From Deltaproteobacteria bacterium (lineage in GTDB: Bacteria > Desulfobacterota > WTBG01 > JAGOGO01), in the NCBI GenBank assembly GCA_017996625.1, contig JAGOGO010000011.1, positions 1 to 42,963 of the forward strand: a stretch of DNA of 42,963 bases. Reading direction: 5' to 3'. The position numbers and the translations under genes are program-made. Positions 12,961-38,030 of the stretch are shown here, piece by piece (the stretch's first letter is position 1; every line of letters starts with the position of its first letter). Below the pieces are notes generated by a model that was not told where the DNA came from, did not search any database, and saw only the letters and a list, made by a program, of their open reading frames with translations.

Positions 12961-13147
12961 CTCTATACACCTCATCACATAGATCCAGGTTCAGATGCCT
13001 TGATCAACAACATGATTCAGTGCGGTTGTCGGTTCTCTGCGACCGGTACCGGCAGTGCATTTAAGGTTTATTATTAAAGAGACGATACCATCAACAGCAG
13101 TATCGTTACAGCTATGGCTATGTCGCCGCAGAGTTTCCCGCCGGCAC

Positions 13148-13174
13148 TAAAGTTCCCCAAAATTCTGCCGATCA
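13148..13174 (+). promoter_or_regulatory. sigma-28 promoter P1 of flagellin
   Basis: TAAAGTTC, exactly 11 bases, GCCGATCA: 7 of 8 in each element of the FliA consensus at ideal spacing. It lies about 230 bases before the flagellin start. Confidence 0.82.
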
Positions 13175-13204
13175 TAGCAGATGAAAGGAATATGCGGTAT
13201 CGGC

Positions 13205-13231
13205 TAAAGTTTTCCCAGGAGCTGCCGATAT
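13205..13231 (+). promoter_or_regulatory. sigma-28 promoter P2 of flagellin
   Basis: TAAAGTTT, exactly 11 bases, GCCGATAT: a perfect -35 and 7 of 8 in the -10. It lies 57 bases downstream of P1, about five and a half helical turns. It leaves a long leader of about 170 bases. Confidence 0.88.
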
Positions 13232-13405: not shown

Positions 13406-14758
13406 ATGGCTCTTATAATTAACCACAATATGATGTCTTACAATGCCGCCAGGAACCTGGCCACGACGTTCAACAGGTTGGCGACGTCGACCCAGCGGCT
13501 CTCCTCAGGCCTTCGCATCAATTCGGCAGCGGACGACGCGGCCGGCCTCGCTGTGCGTGAGTTGCAGCGTGCCGACATCGCGGTATTAAATCAAGGCATT
13601 CGAAATGCCGGCGACGCCATTTCCATGATCCAGACGGCTGAAGGTGGCTTGCAGGTTATCGATGAAAAACTCATTCGAATGAAAGAGCTGGCCGAACAGG
13701 CTGCCACCGGCACCTATACTGATGCCCAGCGCCAGATCATGCAGGATGAATACAATGCTATGGCCAATGAAATCACCCGAATTGCCAATGCCACCGATTT
13801 CAACGGCCAGAAATTGCTCGACGGTTCCATGTCCGGTACAGGAATGAAGATTCATTTCGGACCCGGCAATGATTCCTCTGAAGATTACTATTATGTCTCC
13901 ATCGGAATGATCACTGCCGAGGCTTTGGGAGTCGCCGTCGGTAATGCCAGCCAGGCGGCAGTCAGTTCTTTTGCCTCCCTCGGTTCTCAGGCAGCGGTTT
14001 CTTCACAGGCTGCGGTTGGCACCCAGGCTGCAATTGCATCCCGTGCCTCTGCTTCCGGCGCTTCCTATGCTTCGAGTGCATCCCAGGCTTCAGTGGCTTC
14101 TCAGGCTGCGGTAGACTCTCAGGCTTCGGTAGCATCCCGGGCCTCCATGGCCGCTCAGATTTCCATTGCCTCTCAGGCCTCCCAGGCCTCTCAGGTCGGC
14201 ATCGCTTCCCAGGCTTCGGTCGCCAGCCAGGCCTCGATGGCTTCGCGGGCATCTCTGGCTTCTCAGGCCTCAGTAGCATCGCAGGGGTCGGTTGCTTCCC
14301 AGGCTTCACTCGCTAGCCGGGCTATACGTGCTTCTAATGCTACTGGCACCACCATGGCCAGCCAGGCCGCGGTTACCGCCCAGGCAGCAGTCGCTACCCA
14401 GGCCGCAGTTGCCTCACGAGCGTCACTCGGTTCGCAGGCCGCAGCGACTACATGGGGTGTTACGCTGAACACCCAGCATGGCGCCCAGCAGACGCTGACC
14501 GTAATTGATGCTGCCATCAATGCCAAAGACCGGGCCCGCGCTTCTCTCGGTGCGGTGCAGAACCGGCTCGAAAACACCATCACCAACCTGACCATTCAGG
14601 CGGAGATGACCCAGGCAGCGGAAAGCCGGATCTCGGACGTCGATGTTGCGGAGGAGATGACTGAATTCACCCGCAACAACATCATGGCCCAGGCTGCAAC
14701 CGCCATGCTGGCACAAGCCAACAACATCACCCAGCTGGCGCTCAAGCTCCTTGGGTAA
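13406..14758 (+). CDS. fliC: flagellin with hexapeptide-repeat variable domain
   Basis: Main filament subunit, secreted by the flagellar export system. Residues 1-175 form a normal D0/D1 half (LRINSAADDAAGLAV; IRNAGDAISMIQTAEGGL), and residues 355-450 form the matching C-terminal half (MTEFTRNNIMAQAATAMLAQ). Between them, residues 177-348 are almost entirely hexads of the form [V/I/L/M]-A-S-[Q/R]-A-[S/A], including 14 in an unbroken row (about 230-313). This replaces the usual D2/D3 domains and supplies some 50 serines. Two sigma-28 promoters lie upstream and a rho-independent terminator downstream, so it is monocistronic. The divergent glycan genes next door are its likely modifiers. Confidence 0.96.
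   Translation: MALIINHNMMSYNAARNLATTFNRLATSTQRLSSGLRINSAADDAAGLAVRELQRADIAVLNQGIRNAGDAISMIQTAEGGLQVIDEKLIRMKELAEQAATGTYTDAQRQIMQDEYNAMANEITRIANATDFNGQKLLDGSMSGTGMKIHFGPGNDSSEDYYYVSIGMITAEALGVAVGNASQAAVSSFASLGSQAAVSSQAAVGTQAAIASRASASGASYASSASQASVASQAAVDSQASVASRASMAAQISIASQASQASQVGIASQASVASQASMASRASLASQASVASQGSVASQASLASRAIRASNATGTTMASQAAVTAQAAVATQAAVASRASLGSQAAATTWGVTLNTQHGAQQTLTVIDAAINAKDRARASLGAVQNRLENTITNLTIQAEMTQAAESRISDVDVAEEMTEFTRNNIMAQAATAMLAQANNITQLALKLLG
13934..14449 (+). repeat. coding hexapeptide (18-bp) repeat region of flagellin
   Basis: About 28 hexads with consensus V-A-S-Q-A-S. Position 1 is V, I, L or M in most units, position 2 is a small residue, and position 5 is nearly always Ala. 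At the DNA level the units are well diverged: serine is written TCT, TCC, TCA, TCG and AGC, and alanine likewise varies. The pattern is therefore maintained at the protein level and is not a fresh microsatellite. Confidence 0.92.
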
Positions 14759-17204: not shown

Positions 17205-17804
17205 TTAAGCCGCCCGAGCTGTCATAATTTCTTTATACTCGAGCAGGAGGGGAGATAAGTCGTGTTCAAGCAGATCCGCAAGGTTCTTCCAGTCCTGATG
17301 CTCCTGGGCAGTCAGCATGCTGTCAAAGAGATGTGAGGAGTTCCTCAGCGTATTACGCAGTGAGGCACTTTTCAGCTGTACGTTCTGAAAATCCAGTTTC
17401 AGGACCGCCTCGCTCTCGTGAAGCATGGCGAAGAATCCCTGACAAGACTCCATCAGGTTCCAGTACTGGCGGTTTGCTTCCTGATGGTTCGAGGTGCGGA
17501 ACAATCCCGAAACCCGATCGGCACTTTCCGACAGGCAGTCAAGAATCGAGCCACTATTCCTCAGAAAGGTTTCACAGATCTCCTCAGCGCTCATCGTCTC
17601 CACTTCAAGCGTCTGGATATCGGCGAGGTCCATCTGACTTGCTTCATGCGGCACTTTCTCGCCGAATGCCTCACCGTTGACTTTCACCGACCAGATCACC
17701 CGGTTCTTTTCGATCTGCAGATCAATAATTTCCTGCAAGACATCTTGCAGATTAGCGTGATAAGCGTGAAGAACTGTCTCGCAGCCGTCTATCCAAACTT
17801 TCAT
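17205..17804 (-). CDS. protein of unknown function in the flagellin-modification island
   Basis: 199 residues, not recognised. The first 75 residues alternate short strands with one helix (VWIDG, a helix around residues 18-32, VIWSVKVNGEAFGE, DIQTLEVET), which would suit a small beta-grasp-like domain. The remainder is predicted all-helical (about 75-199) with many acidic and Leu residues, reminiscent in size of flagellar chaperones. There is no signal peptide or membrane segment. A good AGGGG ribosome site precedes the ATG. It is in line with its neighbours (gaps of about 40 bases), so it is probably co-expressed with the glycosyltransferases. Confidence 0.75.
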   Translation of the reverse strand: MKVWIDGCETVLHAYHANLQDVLQEIIDLQIEKNRVIWSVKVNGEAFGEKVPHEASQMDLADIQTLEVETMSAEEICETFLRNSGSILDCLSESADRVSGLFRTSNHQEANRQYWNLMESCQGFFAMLHESEAVLKLDFQNVQLKSASLRNTLRNSSHLFDSMLTAQEHQDWKNLADLLEHDLSPLLLEYKEIMTARAA

Positions 17805-17838: not shown

Positions 17839-19728
17839 CTACCGTCCGAAAATTGCCCGCATCGTCTTGACCATCATTTCGATCCGGGAAACATAGGTAT
17901 GGTCGCGAATTGCCCGTGCATATCCACGTTGCGCAATATGCATCCGTTCTTCCTCTTCACGGAGGTAGTATCTGACCAGGCCCTCGATTTCTCCGGGGTC
18001 CCGGTAACAGACAACCTCTTTTCCCACCTCAAAGAGCTCTTCGATCTGCTCCTGGTAATCAGTGAGAAGAAACCGGTTGCATGCCGGCACATCGAACACC
18101 CGCTGGTTTACTGCACCCTTCATCTGCCGGCTGGTGGCGTTGAAATTGATTGTAGCAACATTATAGAAATAGGGCACTTCATCGTAATAGGACAACTCAC
18201 GGCCGTACCGGAACGTTTCAGCATCGAAGAGCTCGTTCCAGCCCGGGTCACCCACAATGGTGGGTGTGAAGGGGAGGAGTTTTTCTATACGTTCCATCCG
18301 GTACTGTCTGGTGGCCTCCCACGTCACCGCGGTCTGGAAAATCGAGCGCTTCTCCTCGGATAGCGCTGCAAGGACCAGAGCGGCTCCCGGAAACTGCCGC
18401 TGCAACACATCTTCCACGCTCCGGGATGGGGCGTGCGAAAATGAGCGGGCGATTTCCTTGAAACAGCTGGTCAGTGTTGAATCGACATCTGCTTTTAGCA
18501 GACGCGCCCGGGTTTTCTTGACCATTGAATTGCCGATAAACCCTACGTCGCATGCCAGGTGCGCTAAAGGATTGTGGAGGTGCGCCAGCGGCCTGAACCG
18601 CTGCTCGTCCACACCCAGAGGCATATAGAAAATGTGTTCGAATCCGAGCTTCTTCATTTCCGGAATAGTCTCCCGATCCCAGAGGAAGAGCACGCAAAAG
18701 GGACTGATCTTCTTCTGGTAGTGAGGGAGAAGAAGACTCGGGTTATCGACATACCACGAGGCAAAAGGCATTTCTATTTCGTTCAGGAACTGCGCTAATA
18801 CACCCTCCCGGTCCAGCCCGAGGTGATTGATAGTAAAAAGAAAATCAGGTCTGAACTGGAGAATTTTTTCCGACACCTCCTCGATGAACTCGCTTCCGTC
18901 CATCTCCTCCTGATCGATGGTCACAAGTTGAAACCGCATCCCGAGACGCCGCATCGCGCTGACCACCTCACCCATCAGAAAATACTTTGTTGTCAGCAGC
19001 AGTGCCCGCTCCGGGGCTTGGCAGAATTTTGCATATCGCAATCGATCCTGCATGGACTTCCTGGTCAGACGGGTAAACACTCGCACTACCGCATCATAGA
19101 AATCCGGAAAAATCTGCACCGAAGGACGATGGCTGAGAAAATGAATTCTCTCCAAAGAGGTGCCGGTATATGACGTGCTGATACACTGAGCCGCCTCGCT
19201 AACGTCCTCACCCACCCAGATGGTAAGGTTTTTGCGCTGAAACAGCGGACTCAGGTCTACTGCCCTCAAAGCTTCAGCAAAAGCATCCTCATCCCGTTCG
19301 ATAACAACAACTGGTTGAGAATCAGGTATTCGCTGCAGGGCCTCGAGCACATGGTAGAACAACCCTCCCCCGAGAATAACGAAAACCGCATTGTCATCCG
19401 CAGGAATCTGGGCAGCCCACTGTCGTGCTTCTTTGACCGGCTCCGACCAGCTGTAAAATCGTTTTCCCTGCATATTCTCAGTTGCATAGTCGAATCTGGT
19501 CTGACGGCCACGTAACGTCCCGGTATGGACCCGCTGACGAAAACAGCGATCGTCGAATTTAACACGCAGGTATGGATGACGTTCAAGAAAGAGACGGCTA
19601 TTCTCCTGCCAGTAGTCCGGCTGTCCCGAATGCCTGAGCGCATGCTGACCTAAAATGTTCTCAGGTGAGATCAAGGTGGCGTCTCTCTGCTGTTGTCCCT
19701 TGTTCCAGGCAAATTCTCGCATCGTCAT
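17839..19728 (-). CDS. Maf-like/CgeB-type glycosyltransferase
   Basis: 629 residues. The N-terminal third has a Rossmann-like segment (VFVILGGGLFYHVLEAL, VVVIERDEDAF, then LFQRKNL about 15 residues on; about 113-175). This resembles the core of motility accessory factor (Maf/DUF115) proteins that glycosylate flagellin. From about residue 240 it matches DUF3880/CgeB-type GT-B transferases (FRPDFLFTINHLG, ASWYVDNP, FYMPLGVDEQRF, CDVGFIGNS, and a C-terminal FDVPACNRFLLTD segment). The start at 19728 overlaps the end of the upstream TPR-GT41 gene by 68 bases, implying coupling. Donor sugar and acceptor are unknown; flagellin is the natural candidate. Confidence 0.82.
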   Translation of the reverse strand: MTMREFAWNKGQQQRDATLISPENILGQHALRHSGQPDYWQENSRLFLERHPYLRVKFDDRCFRQRVHTGTLRGRQTRFDYATENMQGKRFYSWSEPVKEARQWAAQIPADDNAVFVILGGGLFYHVLEALQRIPDSQPVVVIERDEDAFAEALRAVDLSPLFQRKNLTIWVGEDVSEAAQCISTSYTGTSLERIHFLSHRPSVQIFPDFYDAVVRVFTRLTRKSMQDRLRYAKFCQAPERALLLTTKYFLMGEVVSAMRRLGMRFQLVTIDQEEMDGSEFIEEVSEKILQFRPDFLFTINHLGLDREGVLAQFLNEIEMPFASWYVDNPSLLLPHYQKKISPFCVLFLWDRETIPEMKKLGFEHIFYMPLGVDEQRFRPLAHLHNPLAHLACDVGFIGNSMVKKTRARLLKADVDSTLTSCFKEIARSFSHAPSRSVEDVLQRQFPGAALVLAALSEEKRSIFQTAVTWEATRQYRMERIEKLLPFTPTIVGDPGWNELFDAETFRYGRELSYYDEVPYFYNVATINFNATSRQMKGAVNQRVFDVPACNRFLLTDYQEQIEELFEVGKEVVCYRDPGEIEGLVRYYLREEEERMHIAQRGYARAIRDHTYVSRIEMMVKTMRAIFGR

Positions 19729-22411
19729 ACTCGTTCTTTTGAAGGTGCATTTCACCGAGCAGCTTCCACGCTCCCGGATTCCGATCATTCAGGCTGAGCG
19801 AATGCTTCAGGCTAGCAATAGCCTCTTCGCTTCGACCCAGCTTCTGGTAGGCAACGCCTGCGACATACCATGCTAAGCTGGCAATGCCGGTCGTATCGAT
19901 CAGGCGCAGACTGATTTCCAGCGCCTTCTCCGGTTCACCCGCTTCCAGCTTCACCATCGCCATGCGCAGCATGCTCATACCCCGGATAACCAGATCCATA
20001 CTGTCGCCGGTCTGACTACTCCTCGCATCAGCAGGCATCTCCAATGAGGCTTCTTTTCCGTAGTCAGCCCAGATTTTTTTGAGGTGCACTTCCAACTCGC
20101 GGGTGAACACCCGGGGATTACAGATTGAAGAAGCCAGCAGGTTCCTCCTCATCCGAGTCTTGAGTTCTTTGATCTGTTCAGGGCTTCGAGCAAGAGCCAC
20201 TGCGGCGTCAACATACTCCTCGTCGGAATAGGCAATCAAAGGATCGAGGTCGAGATTCTTGAGGATGGAAAATCCGACCCGCTGAGCATGGCTTTCCCCT
20301 ACCAGGGTTATAACCGGAACATTCATCCATAACGCTTCCAGAGTAGTCACGGTACCATTATAGGGAAACGTATCGAGTGCAACATCAATGGAATCGTAGA
20401 GCCGCAAGTGGTCTTCACGGGTGACGGTATAGCCGAGACATACCAGCCGCTGTTCGGCAATGCCGTGCCGGCCGAACTCGCGAACGATGTTGTTCCAAAC
20501 CAAAGGGGTATTGAGCTGCTTGGCTTTTAACAGGAGCCGGCTTCCTTCCACCTGCCTTAAAATGGCCGCCCAGAGGCTGACTGCCTGGGGCGTAAGCTTC
20601 TGGATATTGTTGAAACACCCGAACCTGATGTCATTCATCTGGACGTCGCGAATCTCGGCCGGTGAAAGCCCTTCAAAGCCCTTGAACGTGAGAAAGCAAT
20701 GGGTAAGCCGAAGCAGCTTCTCTGCGTAACGGTAATCCTTATGGTCACACTCCGCGTACTGATCGGTAATCCGGTAGTCGATACGTGAAAGTCCGGTCGT
20801 ATGAGGATATCCCAGGTACGTCATTTGAACCGGAGCAGGTTTCCGGGCCATGGCCCGGAGTCGATGTCCGGCAGTATGCCCGGCGAGGTCAATGAGAATA
20901 TCCACTTCATCCCGATAGATTTCCTCGGCTACCTCCTGGTCGGAAAGATCATATATATATTTGAAGACGGTGCAGCTGTCGATTATCTCCTGCGTAAAGG
21001 CATCGGCATCCTTGGGATTGAAGTTGGCATAGCAGTAAACGTCGAAATCGCAGTAGTTGTGACTTGTAATGATATCCTTGATCAAATATCCAACTGAGTG
21101 TTCATGCAAGTCAGGCGACACATACCCGATGCGGATCCGTTGATGATGACGCCGTTCCTTAGGATGCTCGTAAGCCCCCACCTCTGCCTCGGTAAATGTT
21201 CCCCACTGCCTGTGGAGGTCGGATATCTCATCAAGCGTCAGATCGGTTGTAGCACAAAACTCCATGAAGCTTCCTGCCAGCACGTCTTTTCCTTTTAAAT
21301 CGTCGGGCGCAATGCGAAAACGCTCGATCAGGGCTCGTGCCTTATCCCACGCACATATCTGTATACAGGTATCATGAAGTGTTGCTAAGTCCGCCTTTTT
21401 CAGATCTTCATAGTTCAGGATCTTCTCGGAAAGCTTTTCCGCTTCCTCGAAGAGACACAGCTCTTTTTGCAGTCCGCACAAATTAGTCAGGCCGACGAGA
21501 CTCTCCTGTATATCGATCGACTTCTGATAGCACTCGGTTGCCTTCTCCAACTCACCGCGCTGGCGATAGGTGTTTCCCATATTCAGATATGCATCCGCGG
21601 CCGACGGATTGATCTCGATCGCCTTCCGAAAAAGGCTGAGAGCCTGATCGAGCCGGTTGCAGTAATGGTGTACAAGTCCAAGGTTGGTCAAGGCTGCGCT
21701 ATTTCCGGGTTCCAGACTGATAGTTTTTTCGTACCAGCGAACCGCATCGTCATATCGTTTCTGTTCCAGGGCAATGTACCCTCGGTTAAACCAGGCGGCG
21801 GCGTATGATGCCGCCAGATCGATCGTCTTCTGAAACCACTGTTCAGCTTCTTCGTAGCGATGCTGGGTCAGGCGAATGCATCCGATATTGTAGCTCGCAT
21901 CAGTGTAACGATCGTTGAGACTCAGTGCCTTCTCATAATAAGCGACCGCCTCGTCCAGATTGTTCTGTGCGCCGGCGACAAAACCGAGATTGTACCAGCC
22001 CTCGGCATCGTTCGGGTTCATTTTTACCGTGACCTGGTATATTTCAGCAGCTTCACCGTATGATTTCGTCGAGATGTAGGCACTGCCAAGCAAAAAAAGT
22101 CCCGGCCGGTGATCTGGATGAAGCTCCCGGAGCTTTCCAAGATATTCGATTGCATCTGCATAGAGTTTCCGGTCATGTGCAATGCAGGACAAAGAATAGA
22201 GAGCCTCAGCGTTGCCCGCATCCTTGCTGATTACCTTGAGAAAAATCTTTCGAGCACTCGTAAGATCGCCGGCCTGGTATGCTTCCCGGCCCTGCATGAT
22301 CAGCCGTGCCCGGTTTGCTGCCGCACTTTTCCCGTTCGATGAATCATGCTGGTGTGCTTTTTTTCTGTCTCGTGAATAGCGATGCTTTACCATAGTCAAT
22401 CGCCCCATCAT
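19661..22411 (-). CDS. TPR-containing GT41 (OGT/SPINDLY-like) glycosyltransferase
   Basis: About 916 residues. At least eight TPRs (about 35-335) precede a GT41 catalytic region (about 425-785). Its motifs are RIGYVSPDLHEHSVGYLI, with the conserved catalytic-region histidines, TYLGYPHTTGLSRIDYRITD, FGCFNNIQKLTP, whose lysine corresponds to the UDP-contacting lysine, and DTFPYNGTVTTLEALW. Two more TPRs follow (about 815-905), which is unusual. GT41 enzymes add one sugar to Ser/Thr hydroxyls of proteins. A strong GGAGG is badly placed for every start: 1 base before TTG 22432 and about 20 before ATG 22411. I use the latter. The Ser-rich flagellin nearby is the likely acceptor (inference). Confidence 0.92.
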   Translation of the reverse strand: MMGRLTMVKHRYSRDRKKAHQHDSSNGKSAAANRARLIMQGREAYQAGDLTSARKIFLKVISKDAGNAEALYSLSCIAHDRKLYADAIEYLGKLRELHPDHRPGLFLLGSAYISTKSYGEAAEIYQVTVKMNPNDAEGWYNLGFVAGAQNNLDEAVAYYEKALSLNDRYTDASYNIGCIRLTQHRYEEAEQWFQKTIDLAASYAAAWFNRGYIALEQKRYDDAVRWYEKTISLEPGNSAALTNLGLVHHYCNRLDQALSLFRKAIEINPSAADAYLNMGNTYRQRGELEKATECYQKSIDIQESLVGLTNLCGLQKELCLFEEAEKLSEKILNYEDLKKADLATLHDTCIQICAWDKARALIERFRIAPDDLKGKDVLAGSFMEFCATTDLTLDEISDLHRQWGTFTEAEVGAYEHPKERRHHQRIRIGYVSPDLHEHSVGYLIKDIITSHNYCDFDVYCYANFNPKDADAFTQEIIDSCTVFKYIYDLSDQEVAEEIYRDEVDILIDLAGHTAGHRLRAMARKPAPVQMTYLGYPHTTGLSRIDYRITDQYAECDHKDYRYAEKLLRLTHCFLTFKGFEGLSPAEIRDVQMNDIRFGCFNNIQKLTPQAVSLWAAILRQVEGSRLLLKAKQLNTPLVWNNIVREFGRHGIAEQRLVCLGYTVTREDHLRLYDSIDVALDTFPYNGTVTTLEALWMNVPVITLVGESHAQRVGFSILKNLDLDPLIAYSDEEYVDAAVALARSPEQIKELKTRMRRNLLASSICNPRVFTRELEVHLKKIWADYGKEASLEMPADARSSQTGDSMDLVIRGMSMLRMAMVKLEAGEPEKALEISLRLIDTTGIASLAWYVAGVAYQKLGRSEEAIASLKHSLSLNDRNPGAWKLLGEMHLQKNEYDDARICLEQGTTAERRHLDLT

Positions 22412-22465
22412 TACAAATTCCGCGTAATGCAAACCTCCTGAAAACGAGGCAGCCGTGGTTTGGTC

Positions 22466-24964
22466 TTACAGATACTTCTGACCCAGGAGAATGCTGCGGC
22501 CCCGTTCGCTCACCGCCACTTTCTTCACGCTTCCGAAGCCTGCCTGCGCCAGCCGCTTCAGCTCCACCTCATCGCTCTCGTGTCCCTCATAGAGCACTAC
22601 CTTCTGCCGTGACATCAGCCCGATCAGATTCTCCTTGTTCCGTACCCAGTTCATAACCGACAAACACGTGCATACATCCGCTCCATCTTCAATCGCGTCC
22701 GTCATCTCTTTGCGATTGAAATCTGCCTGCTGCCATCGACACTGCTGCTCAACTCCAAATTCCTCCGCCACGAGCCGACATCCTTCCAGAATGTCCGCCT
22801 CGTATTCGTAACCCCGACATTGCGCTCCCTCTCGAGCCGCCCAGACACTCAACAACCCCAGATTACAGCCCAGCTCCAGAATCTTCTTGCCGTCCAGACT
22901 CCCTCCACATGCTTCCCGCAGCGCCGGCCCAATATACGACCAGCGCTCCTCCCACGGCCGCTCTCCTTCAAAATACCGGCCATCTACATTCAACGAGTAA
23001 TAGGCTACGTACTTCCCCGGATAACTCGCGTTGCTCCTCGCCGCTATGTCCCAGGCCGCTTCAAGACGATTGTTCGTATGAATCGGGTTACCGGAAACGG
23101 ACCGTGGAACCCGATAGAAAAATCCATGGTCGTAATCATTTCTGCCCTCTGCAGGCTCGGCCTGATCAAAATCGATGAGGCAGAGTTCATAGTCAGGACC
23201 GACGAGGAAATTTCTTTCGAAAAGATCATTATGCAAAATACCTGCGCTGTTTACGGCTTGGATAATTCGGTGCTTCTGCTGTTCGACTCTGTTTCGCATC
23301 TCGGGAGGTATCGGCACCGCGTCCAACGTACCAACGTTGGGAAAATATTCCAGTACGCTGATCGTATGATCTTCACGCTCTCGGTATTCCTTGAGCCGGC
23401 AGACGTTTTCTACCCCGGCGAGTTGCCTCAGGTACTGGGCCTCCTGGTGCGGCGAGGCCAGTTTCGCCGGATTTTTATCTTTTGACAGCCGGGCCTTCCA
23501 CACCTCCAGCTTGTAGTAAATTCTTTCTTTTTCTCCTCCGTCACCTTTCGACACACTGGGGACGCAGAACGGCGCCCCAATGAGGTCATACCGCTTCTCG
23601 AATTCATCCCAGCTCATCTGTTTCGCTGCTCCATCTTTTCGAGCCAGAAAAACGCTGCGGCCCCGTTCGCTCACCGCCACTTTCTTCACGCTTCCGAAGC
23701 CTGCCTGCGCCAGCCGCTTCAGCTCCACCTCATCGCTCTCGTGTCCCTCATAGAGCACTACCTTCTGCCGTGACATCAGCCCGATCAGATTCTCCTTGTT
23801 CCGTACCCAGTTCATAACCGACAAACACGTGCATACATCCGCTCCATCTTCAATCGCGTCCGTCATCTCTTTGCGATTGAAATCTGCCTGCTGCCATCGA
23901 CACTGCTGCTCAACTCCAAATTCCTCCGCCACGAGCCGACATCCTTCCAGAATGTCCGCCTCGTATTCGTAACCCCGACATTGCGCTCCCTCTCGAGCCG
24001 CCCAGACACTCAACAACCCCAGATTACAGCCCAGCTCCAGAATCTTCTTGCCGTCCAGACTCCCTCCACATGCTTCCCGCAGCGCCGGCCCAATATACGA
24101 CCAGCGCTCCTCCCACGGCCGCTCTCCTTCAAAATACCGGCCATCTACATTCAACGAGTAATAGGCTACGTACTTCCCCGGATAACTCGCGTTGCTCCTC
24201 GCCGCTATGTCCCAGGCCCCCTTGAGACGATCCCGTGATGCAACCTGAAGGTCCACAGGTTGAACCTCAGAACACTGGCTTGAGAGCTTGTCGGAGGCGT
24301 GGAACAGGTGGTAAAGATCTCCTTGCTCCGAAACATCGCTCTCCAGAAGCTCGTAGCCGCATTCCAGCGGCGCGACGATGCTCTGCTCATCACTGCCGGC
24401 GATAATCATGAAGGCTGGACGATGCTTCGTTGTGTCAAGCCCGTCAAGAATAGTCTTTCCTGCCGCGGACACATTCAGGACGAGAAGATCAGGATTCGCA
24501 ATGTCGTATTCGTTCAAAATCGAACTGATCGTTCTGGCTTTCTCGCTCAGGTTCTGCGACTGCGGCGGCTGGTTCCAGAACCCCGCTCCGCTGGCCAGCG
24601 GCGATTCGGTTCCGATACAAGTGTAATTCAGAACGCCGCAGGCCGGCCGGTTAGCCATGCACTGGGCGCTCTTTTCCGCTTCCGCTTCAATCAGGAGACC
24701 AGTCCATCCTTTTCGTTCTAAAGAGACCGTTATGCTGGAGCAAAGACCGTCCCCCGCACCGACCTCAACAAAGAGCCCTTGATCGGGTCCGGCATGCTTG
24801 GTCAGCACGCGTGCCACGTCAAAAGATGAGATCCGTCCAGCTCCTGCATTCGCGGGCTCGGGCTTGGTGACGGTGTTTCCGATAATGTCGCATCGTTCGT
24901 GAGGATATTCGGCATTCCCTTTCACTGTGCAGATCCTTTCTTCGCTACGGATGATTGACGACAT
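22466..24964 (-). CDS. four-domain FkbM-like / methyltransferase / kinase-like / methyltransferase protein
   Basis: 832 residues. Domains: (a) about 30-200, an FkbM-like methyltransferase fold (LFVEVGAGDGLCSS, WTGLLIEAEAE) whose second hallmark has decayed; (b) about 249-437, a class I methyltransferase with KKILELGCNLGLLSVWAA; (c) about 440-630, a small kinase-like domain with GILHNDLFERNFL and LCLIDFDQAE, matching the catalytic HxD...N and DFD motifs of aminoglycoside/LPS-kinase relatives; (d) about 636-824, an exact second copy of (b). The two copies are identical at the DNA level. The ATG is preceded by hairpins and no clear ribosome site. A role in tailoring a glycan by methylation and phosphorylation is inferred from domains and neighbours. 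Confidence 0.85.
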   Translation of the reverse strand: MSSIIRSEERICTVKGNAEYPHERCDIIGNTVTKPEPANAGAGRISSFDVARVLTKHAGPDQGLFVEVGAGDGLCSSITVSLERKGWTGLLIEAEAEKSAQCMANRPACGVLNYTCIGTESPLASGAGFWNQPPQSQNLSEKARTISSILNEYDIANPDLLVLNVSAAGKTILDGLDTTKHRPAFMIIAGSDEQSIVAPLECGYELLESDVSEQGDLYHLFHASDKLSSQCSEVQPVDLQVASRDRLKGAWDIAARSNASYPGKYVAYYSLNVDGRYFEGERPWEERWSYIGPALREACGGSLDGKKILELGCNLGLLSVWAAREGAQCRGYEYEADILEGCRLVAEEFGVEQQCRWQQADFNRKEMTDAIEDGADVCTCLSVMNWVRNKENLIGLMSRQKVVLYEGHESDEVELKRLAQAGFGSVKKVAVSERGRSVFLARKDGAAKQMSWDEFEKRYDLIGAPFCVPSVSKGDGGEKERIYYKLEVWKARLSKDKNPAKLASPHQEAQYLRQLAGVENVCRLKEYREREDHTISVLEYFPNVGTLDAVPIPPEMRNRVEQQKHRIIQAVNSAGILHNDLFERNFLVGPDYELCLIDFDQAEPAEGRNDYDHGFFYRVPRSVSGNPIHTNNRLEAAWDIAARSNASYPGKYVAYYSLNVDGRYFEGERPWEERWSYIGPALREACGGSLDGKKILELGCNLGLLSVWAAREGAQCRGYEYEADILEGCRLVAEEFGVEQQCRWQQADFNRKEMTDAIEDGADVCTCLSVMNWVRNKENLIGLMSRQKVVLYEGHESDEVELKRLAQAGFGSVKKVAVSERGRSILLGQKYL
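22493..23057. repeat. 565-bp perfect direct repeat, copy A (3' end of gene)
   Basis: Read by eye, it is base-for-base identical to 23654-24218. The offset is 1161 bp, exactly 387 codons, so the repeat is in frame. Identity stops abruptly at both edges; outside them only scattered matches remain. Confidence 0.93.
23654..24218. repeat. 565-bp perfect direct repeat, copy B (middle of gene)
   Basis: Partner of 22493-23057, encoding the first methyltransferase domain of the polyprotein. Recombination between the copies would delete or duplicate a methyltransferase-kinase unit without breaking the frame. Confidence 0.93.
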
Positions 24965-24974
24965 CGTCAAAAGG

Positions 24975-36450: not shown

Positions 36451-37968
36451 TTACCTGAGAAAGTCGATAAGTGAGGGCTGAATTACCTTGGCTGCCGCCG
36501 CAAGTGAGGCCTGATAGGCGGCTTCCTGGCTGGCGAGGTCAGCTGTTACCTTGGCAAGATCGGCATCTTCCGTGTTGGAAAGCGTTTCCGTTACCTGGAG
36601 AAGAAACATCTCCCAGTGAGTCTCGGTCGCTTCGATGCGATTGAGCCGGGCACCTGCCTCCGCCCGGACAGTCGCTACCTGTTCCAGGGCTTGTCCCAAC
36701 GGCTCAATCTGCCGGGAAATGCCGTCGATATCATTATGTTCGAGTGCGACCTGAAGCTCATGGAGCGCCTCAAAGATATCCACCGCACTGTCGAACACCT
36801 CACTTCCGGTAAAATTAACTCGCTGGAGCGCACTCTCGCCTGCAGCGATGCGGATTGCACCCTCATCCCCATGGTAGGTTGCATACTCTCCGCTCATGTC
36901 AGGATGCCAAACATCGACGGAAAACGTATCGCCCGCTGTCACCGTTCCCGCACCCAGCTGTACCTGCAACCCTTCAACAACAGTAATCAGGGTTCCGGGA
37001 ACATAGGTGGCGTCAAGCGTGATTTCACCTTCGCCGTATGATCCATCATTCCACTGAATCGTTATGCTGTCGGTGCCCACAGTACCTGTTCCCGATGCAG
37101 AGGCAATTCTGAACTCAAATGTCTTGCTGGTTGTGCCGCTGTAACTTCCTCCCGAAGAGACGGTCGAAGTCCCCGCCCACGTTGCTGCTGGCTCAGCTGC
37201 ATCGATGAGTGCAGCAGGGTTGGAGGTATTGAAGAGAAGATTGCTGGTGTTTCCGCTCACCCTGATCGTCTGGTCGCCTGACGTCCAGTTGGCAGTGAGC
37301 ACGAGACGATCCGGATTTGATGAGGATCCATCATCCACAATTGCTGCACTCAAAAGATTACCTGCGGCATCATCCGCCGCCTCTATAGCATCACGGAGGG
37401 CGGTCAGGCTGGTACCATTTGCCACATCAACGGTAAAACTTTTCGATCCCACTGAAATGGTCCAGGTTTCAGTCCGATTCAAAACAAAGGTTGCCTGGTC
37501 GACCCCTTGCGAGCCTAGCCGGGTATCGTCGTAGTACGGTGGCGTATCGGTCTGATGGCCGGCAAACAGATACCCCTGGGTCACCTTAGTATTCGCAAGC
37601 TGCATGATCTGATCGTGAATGTCGTTGATTTCTTCTGCAGCAATAGCTCGGGTCTGAGCTGTAGCAGTAGCGGTTGCCTGATACACAGCAAGTTCTTTGG
37701 CTCGAGTCAGAAGAGTGCCGACGGTATCCAGCGCGCCGTCGACGTGTTCCAGATTCGATTTGCCATACATAATATTGCGCTGGTACTGTTCGATACGCGC
37801 GATTGTCTCACGGTAGTTCAACACATGAGCCATTCCGGTAGGATCATCGGACGGACGATTTATCCGTTTTGTGGAGGAGATGATGTTCTGCGTTTTGTAG
37901 AGCCGTTCGATATTTCGAAAAAGGTTCCCGGTAATGCTATTTGCCATAGATTGATTGGTTACCCGCAT
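36451..37968 (-). CDS. flgL: hook-filament junction protein FlgL (HAP3), enlarged
   Basis: Forms the junction between FlgK and the filament. 505 residues against about 300 usually. The N-terminus (MRVTNQSMANSITGNLFRNI) and C-terminus (QEAAYQASLAAAAKVIQPSL) are standard. Between them are a flagellin-IN-like motif (about 165-250) and one 90-residue beta module (about 263-354) matching those in FliD, with TFEFRI, TVGTDSITIQW and GTVTAGDTFSVDV. Two adjacent ATGs exist; 37968 has the AAGGAG at 6 bases. It follows flgK by 62 bases. Confidence 0.95.
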   Translation of the reverse strand: MRVTNQSMANSITGNLFRNIERLYKTQNIISSTKRINRPSDDPTGMAHVLNYRETIARIEQYQRNIMYGKSNLEHVDGALDTVGTLLTRAKELAVYQATATATAQTRAIAAEEINDIHDQIMQLANTKVTQGYLFAGHQTDTPPYYDDTRLGSQGVDQATFVLNRTETWTISVGSKSFTVDVANGTSLTALRDAIEAADDAAGNLLSAAIVDDGSSSNPDRLVLTANWTSGDQTIRVSGNTSNLLFNTSNPAALIDAAEPAATWAGTSTVSSGGSYSGTTSKTFEFRIASASGTGTVGTDSITIQWNDGSYGEGEITLDATYVPGTLITVVEGLQVQLGAGTVTAGDTFSVDVWHPDMSGEYATYHGDEGAIRIAAGESALQRVNFTGSEVFDSAVDIFEALHELQVALEHNDIDGISRQIEPLGQALEQVATVRAEAGARLNRIEATETHWEMFLLQVTETLSNTEDADLAKVTADLASQEAAYQASLAAAAKVIQPSLIDFLR

Positions 37969-38030
37969 CATGCACTCCTTCGCTTCATCCATCATTAACC
38001 GGTAAGGCAAAAAAACAGCAGCAAATCATA

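Follow-up and report, generated by a model that had tools for sequence, protein, structure and literature searches.

A hexad repeat at the outer-domain position of a deltaproteobacterial flagellin

The sole flagellin found in a 3.14 Mb deltaproteobacterial genome (92% complete) carries, between conserved D0/D1 halves, about 170 residues built of the hexad [VILM]-A-S-[QR]-A-[SA]. The overall explanation that we consider probable is that this Ala/Ser-rich repeat module has replaced the D2/D3 outer domains and serves as a length-tolerant coat. The source genome and most of the relatives compared here are MAGs. Here, we describe the gene and its insert, the other proteins in which the same hexad is found, and the folds that the insert might adopt.

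The flagellin gene and its insert

The gene lies in a window of 42,963 nt (the whole stretch of DNA that was analysed) and reads through without internal stop or frame break (Table 1). Pfam assigns Flagellin_N (PF00669, 5e-36) and Flagellin_C (PF00700, 1.5e-25) to its two ends, which bears out an earlier note, made from the letters of the sequence, that had called it a flagellin with conserved D0/D1 flanks; no Pfam model covers the repeat region between them. The other PF00669 match in the genome is FlgL (36451-38010), which is encoded in the window together with FliD and FlgK. Three tandem sigma-28-like sites are found upstream of the flagellin (13062-13231, forward strand), scored against the sigma-28 (FliA) consensus, which has four matches in the window versus 0.16 expected by chance. 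This context (sole flagellin, sigma-28 sites, and FliD, FlgK and FlgL genes) is supporting evidence that the protein would act as a filament subunit.

Table 1. Positions of the flagellin gene, its parts and neighbouring features in the window
Feature	Coordinates	Strand	Basis or remark
Flagellin gene P0001, 450 aa	13406..14758	+	ORF; Pfam; genome profile search
N-terminal D0/D1 half, residues 1-176	13406..13933	+	Flagellin_N at residues 5-141; insert-free flagellins align up to ...ITAEALGV
Repeat segment 1 with closing break SGASYAS, residues 182-223	13949..14074	+	18 residues longer than in sister genus
Repeat segment 2, 14 in-register hexads with break RASNATG, residues 224-314	14075..14347	+	42 residues (7 hexads) longer than in sister genus
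Repeat segment 3, residues 315-348	14348..14449	+	18 residues longer than in sister genus
C-terminal D1/D0 half, residues 349-450 and stop	14450..14758	+	Flagellin_C at residues 364-449
Putative sigma-28 (FliA)-type promoter, TAAAGTTT-N11-GCCGATAT, 1 mismatch	13205..13231	+	upstream of flagellin
Further sigma-28-like site, 2 mismatches	13148-13174	+	upstream of flagellin
Further sigma-28-like site, 3 mismatches	13062-13088	+	upstream of flagellin
199-aa protein, no Pfam or NCBIfam match, kept near flagellin genes of the class	17205..17804	-	neighbourhood comparison
DUF3880/Glyco_trans_1_2 glycosyltransferase, kept near flagellin in repeat-bearing and repeat-less relatives	17839..19788	-	Pfam; neighbourhood comparison
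TPR + GT41 glycosyltransferase (OGT-like, FlmG-like architecture), candidate flagellin O-glycosyltransferase	19661..22432	-	Pfam; neighbourhood comparison

The repeat occupies residues 177-348 (13934-14449), as had been noted, and its periodicity is pronounced: residues six positions apart are identical in 83 of 166 comparisons, against a mean of 32.5 and a maximum of 48 in 5000 shuffles. An in-register run of 14 consecutive hexads (residues 224-307) agrees with the earlier count of uninterrupted units, while the accompanying total of about 28 hexads equals the length divided by six; 20 hexads match [VILMF]-small-[STA]-[QR]-x-small, or 22 with a looser position 4. Within the array there is a sub-period of three (A-S-x), so that the unit V-A-S-Q-A-S consists of A-S-x triplets in which x is alternately aliphatic and Gln/Arg. 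Two breaks (about residues 212-223, SGASYAS, and about 308-316, SNATGTT) divide the array into three segments. Copies of the repeat shifted against one another were discarded as alignment input because MAFFT merely re-registers them.

Relatives of the same class that lack the insert have flagellins of minimal size (281-283 aa), which align to both of its edges, with ...ITAEALGV / insert / GVTLNTQHGAQ... corresponding to ...TAEALGLN-TLNISTQSGAQ... in the insert-free proteins. The repeat therefore sits at the D2/D3 position, as had been proposed. Two of the insert-free flagellins (L006 and L022) have a near-hexad D1 return segment (SIASQSGAQ and DIASQSTAQ, respectively), and one may speculate that a local duplication of this segment could have seeded the repeat.

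The same insert is present in the 372-aa flagellin of a sister genus of the same family (L004/L137; L088, JAFGRE010000175.1, from 'Deltaproteobacteria bacterium Zod_Metabat.815'). Both array breaks are kept there, and segments 1, 2 and 3 are shorter by exactly 18, 42 and 18 residues. Proportions of synonymous (pS) and nonsynonymous (pN) differences are 0.74 and 0.22 between the two species, and 0.68 and 0.25 between the hexads of this one gene. Synonymous sites are thus saturated and amino acids kept, so that the protein is conserved and not the DNA; the repeat unit is kept by purifying selection on the protein, as the earlier note had suggested from the differing codons of the units. The saturation, together with the presence of the same insert in the sister genus, rules out recent slippage and assembly error. 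A frame or assembly error across the repeat, which had been raised as a concern, thereby falls away: the frame is unbroken, and the insert recurs in an independent MAG of another genus.

The same hexad in other proteins and lineages

The hexad also occurs in flagellins of three Rhodospirillales-type genomes, designated here as G396 (664 aa, about 386 residues of repeat), G789 (insert of about 313 residues) and G781 (L249, insert of about 86 residues). Over the 107 hexads of five flagellins, the six positions are dominated by V70 I19 L13, A80, S85, Q56 R14 V9 I8, A83, and S72 A32, respectively. In G781, TSLRTTATQLG follows the repeat without a gap, and the repeat takes the place of the beginning of the CD1 helix; the repeat may be helical at that point, or CD1 may be shortened. 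Besides its flagellin, G396 encodes an RTX protein of 1728 aa (L071/L238, JAJFID010000091.1, a Rhodospirillales MAG) in which a 544-residue insert of the repeat separates the two halves of a Big_9/cadherin-like domain. ABC and HlyD genes adjoin the RTX gene.

In a D0/D1 tree, the repeat flagellins form two clades (SH-aLRT 98 and 99) among repeat-less ones, and the hypothesis of one clade is rejected (p-AU 0.00035). The outer domain would therefore either have arisen on two occasions or have passed from one lineage to another without D0/D1, and the tree is compatible with both. The Rhodospirillales and deltaproteobacterial inserts have only the consensus in common, so that the repeat cannot prove the inserts to share an ancestor.

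Scanning GTDB at the DNA level with three strict hexads returned 67 loci, most of which are 18-bp satellites read out of frame (Treponema, actinobacteria); the scan recovered the sister genus and the RTX protein, missed the Rhodospirillales flagellins, and gives no estimate of prevalence. When 395 genomes of the phylum were scanned for A-S-x, no genera other than the two of this family were conspicuous, as judged from the matched sequences, and the remaining matches look like simple repeats or are out of pattern. In the class of G396, 385 genomes were scanned with two hexads; this returned G396 itself and a match in G487, which was rejected as a chance match since there is no such ORF there. 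Scans of viral contigs yielded short satellite-like frames, none identified as flagellin, and a tblastn search of plasmids and phages with the insert gave no match, possibly due to the low-complexity filter. Literature searches for a repeat or beta-helix flagellin found nothing relevant.

Similar hexads were seen in two further groups. Mycobacterium loci L042, L054, L066 and L100 contain long IASQAG/IGGQAG hexad arrays in Gly-rich proteins, with no Pfam match for L066. Treponema MAGs (L043, L046, L067, L068, L079, L091, L092 and L102) have frequent 18-bp arrays reading SLASRAS, and in L102, an in-frame SLASQAS array lies within a sensor histidine kinase.

Possible folds of the insert

The insert could form a beta arrangement outside the established classes, fold as a helical hairpin, or make up a brush that is glycosylated or disordered; a classical left-handed beta-helix (LbH) is less likely. 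Tentatively, we suggest that the VASQAS/A-S-x array could be an undescribed extracellular repeat fold, which has taken the place of flagellin D2/D3 on at least two occasions and is also displayed by an RTX protein. Such a fold would represent a new structural class, a solenoid or sheet tightly packed through Ala and Ser that is neither LbH nor collagen nor PGRS, with a length adjusted in whole units.

Possible too, though somewhat doubtful, is a Ser-rich stalk or brush that is largely extended or disordered and bears O-glycans, which the adjacent TPR-GT41 protein would attach in the cytoplasm before export, much like FlmG in Caulobacter. The insert is 29% Ser+Thr and nearly uncharged, AlphaFold2 gives it no confident fold, and the genes beside the flagellin encode, besides the TPR-GT41 and DUF3880 glycosyltransferases, FkbM-type methyltransferases, in a glycosylation cluster common to the sister genus. 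In Caulobacter, O-glycosylation of flagellins depends on FlmG, a glycosyltransferase of the TPR type (PMC7591256); the GT41 model also finds matches in Caulobacter (control). The insert may thus be glycosylated, and the glycan-coated stalk that the earlier note had named as its main alternative stays as a rival. The occurrence of the enzymes, however, does not follow that of the repeat: repeat-less flagellins also have parts of the cluster next to them, GT41 lies near repeat-less flagellins in Rhodospirillales relatives (alphaproteobacteria), and none was found in the repeat-bearing G781, whose genome is possibly incomplete. A role of GT41 as a repeat-specific enzyme was rejected on these grounds. 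Furthermore, a disordered acceptor would not need the strict order of A-S-x and hexad.

Two other observations concern this neighbourhood. Homologues of the 199-aa protein (24-36% identity) stand beside flagellin or glycosyltransferase genes of several relatives; it is perhaps an uncharacterised flagellin-modification or chaperone protein. ORF 22466-24970 (reverse strand) contains a 300-nt direct repeat (22480-22779 and 23641-23940, 99% identical), with the same methyltransferase segment on both sides of a kinase-like domain; this is either a recent internal duplication or an assembly effect.

An alpha-helical outer domain, in which segments 1-3 form three Ala-rich helices packed as a hairpin or bundle, appears somewhat unlikely. 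Both AlphaFold2 runs call helix: the run with P0001 alone places a low-confidence helix in the insert (pLDDT mostly <50), and the run that combined the insert with the sister-genus and RTX repeats gives three helices broken near the two conserved breaks, at a pLDDT of about 30. At such scores, the structure prediction that the earlier note had called for did return a helix, but neither supports nor refutes an LbH. The Ala/Gln-rich composition of the insert, the replacement of the CD1 helix start by the repeat in G781, and the joint change in length of segments 1 and 3 (18 and 18 residues) are consistent with helices. Against them, the hydrophobicity of the insert has strong periods of 2, 3 and 6 and none of 3.5-3.6, Val/Ile are favoured over Leu/Met at position 1, and the insert lacks charged helix formers.

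A classical left-handed parallel beta-helix, with three hexads per coil and about nine coils projecting from each subunit, was the proposal of the earlier note and seems unlikely from what the sequence offers. The minimal hexapeptide rule [LIV]-[GAED]-x-x-[STAV]-x (quoted in PMC3046976) is matched 18 times, against a shuffled mean of 6.7 and a maximum of 13, and to this extent the proposal holds. The turn residues do not follow: of the 22 hexads in this gene, 4 have G/N/D at positions 2-4 and none has it at position 4, and in the five flagellins the count is 9 of 107, versus 71 of 80 hexads in LbH proteins of the same genome, with 51 of the 80 having it at position 4 (Fisher test of the five flagellins against this reference set, 5e-31; the set itself is made of pattern-selected hexads of one genome). 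Related inserts have Val/Ile at the turn position. The preference for Val/Ile and a hydrophobicity that recurs with a period of 2, not 3.6, do point to beta structure, and in a phmmer search of the insert against the PDB, three LpxD chains are the best matches, in register (E=0.035); order-scrambled controls, however, score E=0.006-0.055 against unrelated proteins. Pfam Hexapep does not match the insert even at E<=10 (the same genome has 12 Hexapep matches elsewhere), and neither a profile of all inserts nor the RTX insert found an LbH in the PDB. The difference in length from the sister genus is 18 residues, or one coil, in each of segments 1 and 3, but 42 residues in segment 2, which does not divide into whole coils. 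In addition, the insert starts and ends at a single D1 hairpin, while a solenoid has its ends apart.

Least credible, to a degree that we regard as extremely improbable, is a slippage-driven DNA tandem repeat (VNTR or phase-variable) without protein constraint, or an assembly artefact: Tandem Repeats Finder does detect periods of 18-36 bp, but the DNA copies are just 65-73% alike, where a phase-variable repeat would be expected to have near-identical units, and the saturated synonymous sites and the independent MAG described above speak against it.

Proposed role and comparison with known systems

We return to the probable reading, a repeat module inserted at the D1 tip in place of the D2/D3 outer domains. 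With D0/D1 conserved, the filament core should assemble as usual, and each subunit would display a nearly uncharged sheath or spike of Ser, Ala, Gln and Val. The length of this sheath could change by whole repeat units with the core undisturbed; the insert differs in length between close relatives while D0/D1 is conserved. Since flagellins of two clades share this module with an RTX protein, where it occupies a loop, it would most likely be a generic, length-tolerant module for extracellular display or coating and not a flagellum-specific machine. We infer this coat or display function from the position and composition of the insert only. Against the outer-domain view stands the G781 repeat, whose entry into the start of the CD1 helix hints at a partly helical structure there and not a separate domain.

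Outer domains of flagellins are very diverse; that one regular repeat should turn up separately in two distant groups, and again in a secreted surface protein of one of the organisms concerned, points to a surface module that is reusable and follows a strict sequence rule. Length variation among close relatives provides a natural series for studying the effects of a filament coat on swimming, adhesion and recognition. Because the repeat follows such a rule and is short of turn residues, the question of its fold can be tested directly.

Among characterised flagellins, type B FliC of Pseudomonas aeruginosa PAO1 has D2/D3 as variable outer domains (PMC10256154). The flagellin described here likewise has a D0/D1 core and an insert at the D1 tip, and as in flagellins generally, outer domain size and type vary between species. 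Unlike in PAO1 FliC, the outer domain is a low-complexity hexad/triplet repeat rather than globular D2/D3. With LbH proteins (LpxD, LpxA, GlmU and NeuO; PF00132), the insert shares the six-residue unit, an aliphatic position 1 and small residues at positions 2 and 5; it differs from them in having no Hexapep match, scarce G/N/D turn residues and no confident beta-helix prediction, and from the LbH acyltransferases in being the outer domain of a flagellin. As in the FlmG system of Caulobacter (PMC7591256), a TPR + GT-B/GT41 gene lies near the flagellin, although here the presence of GT41 does not follow the repeat among relatives.

The mycobacterial IASQAG/IGGQAG proteins resemble the insert in their long arrays of [VIL]-small-small-Q-small-small hexads, but are Gly-rich, different host proteins that lack flagellin domains. 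Finally, the Rhodospirillales RTX/Big_9 protein carries the same V/I-A-S-Q-A-S repeat, placed in a loop of an extracellular domain; unlike the flagellin, it is a protein of the type I-secretion type and not a filament subunit.
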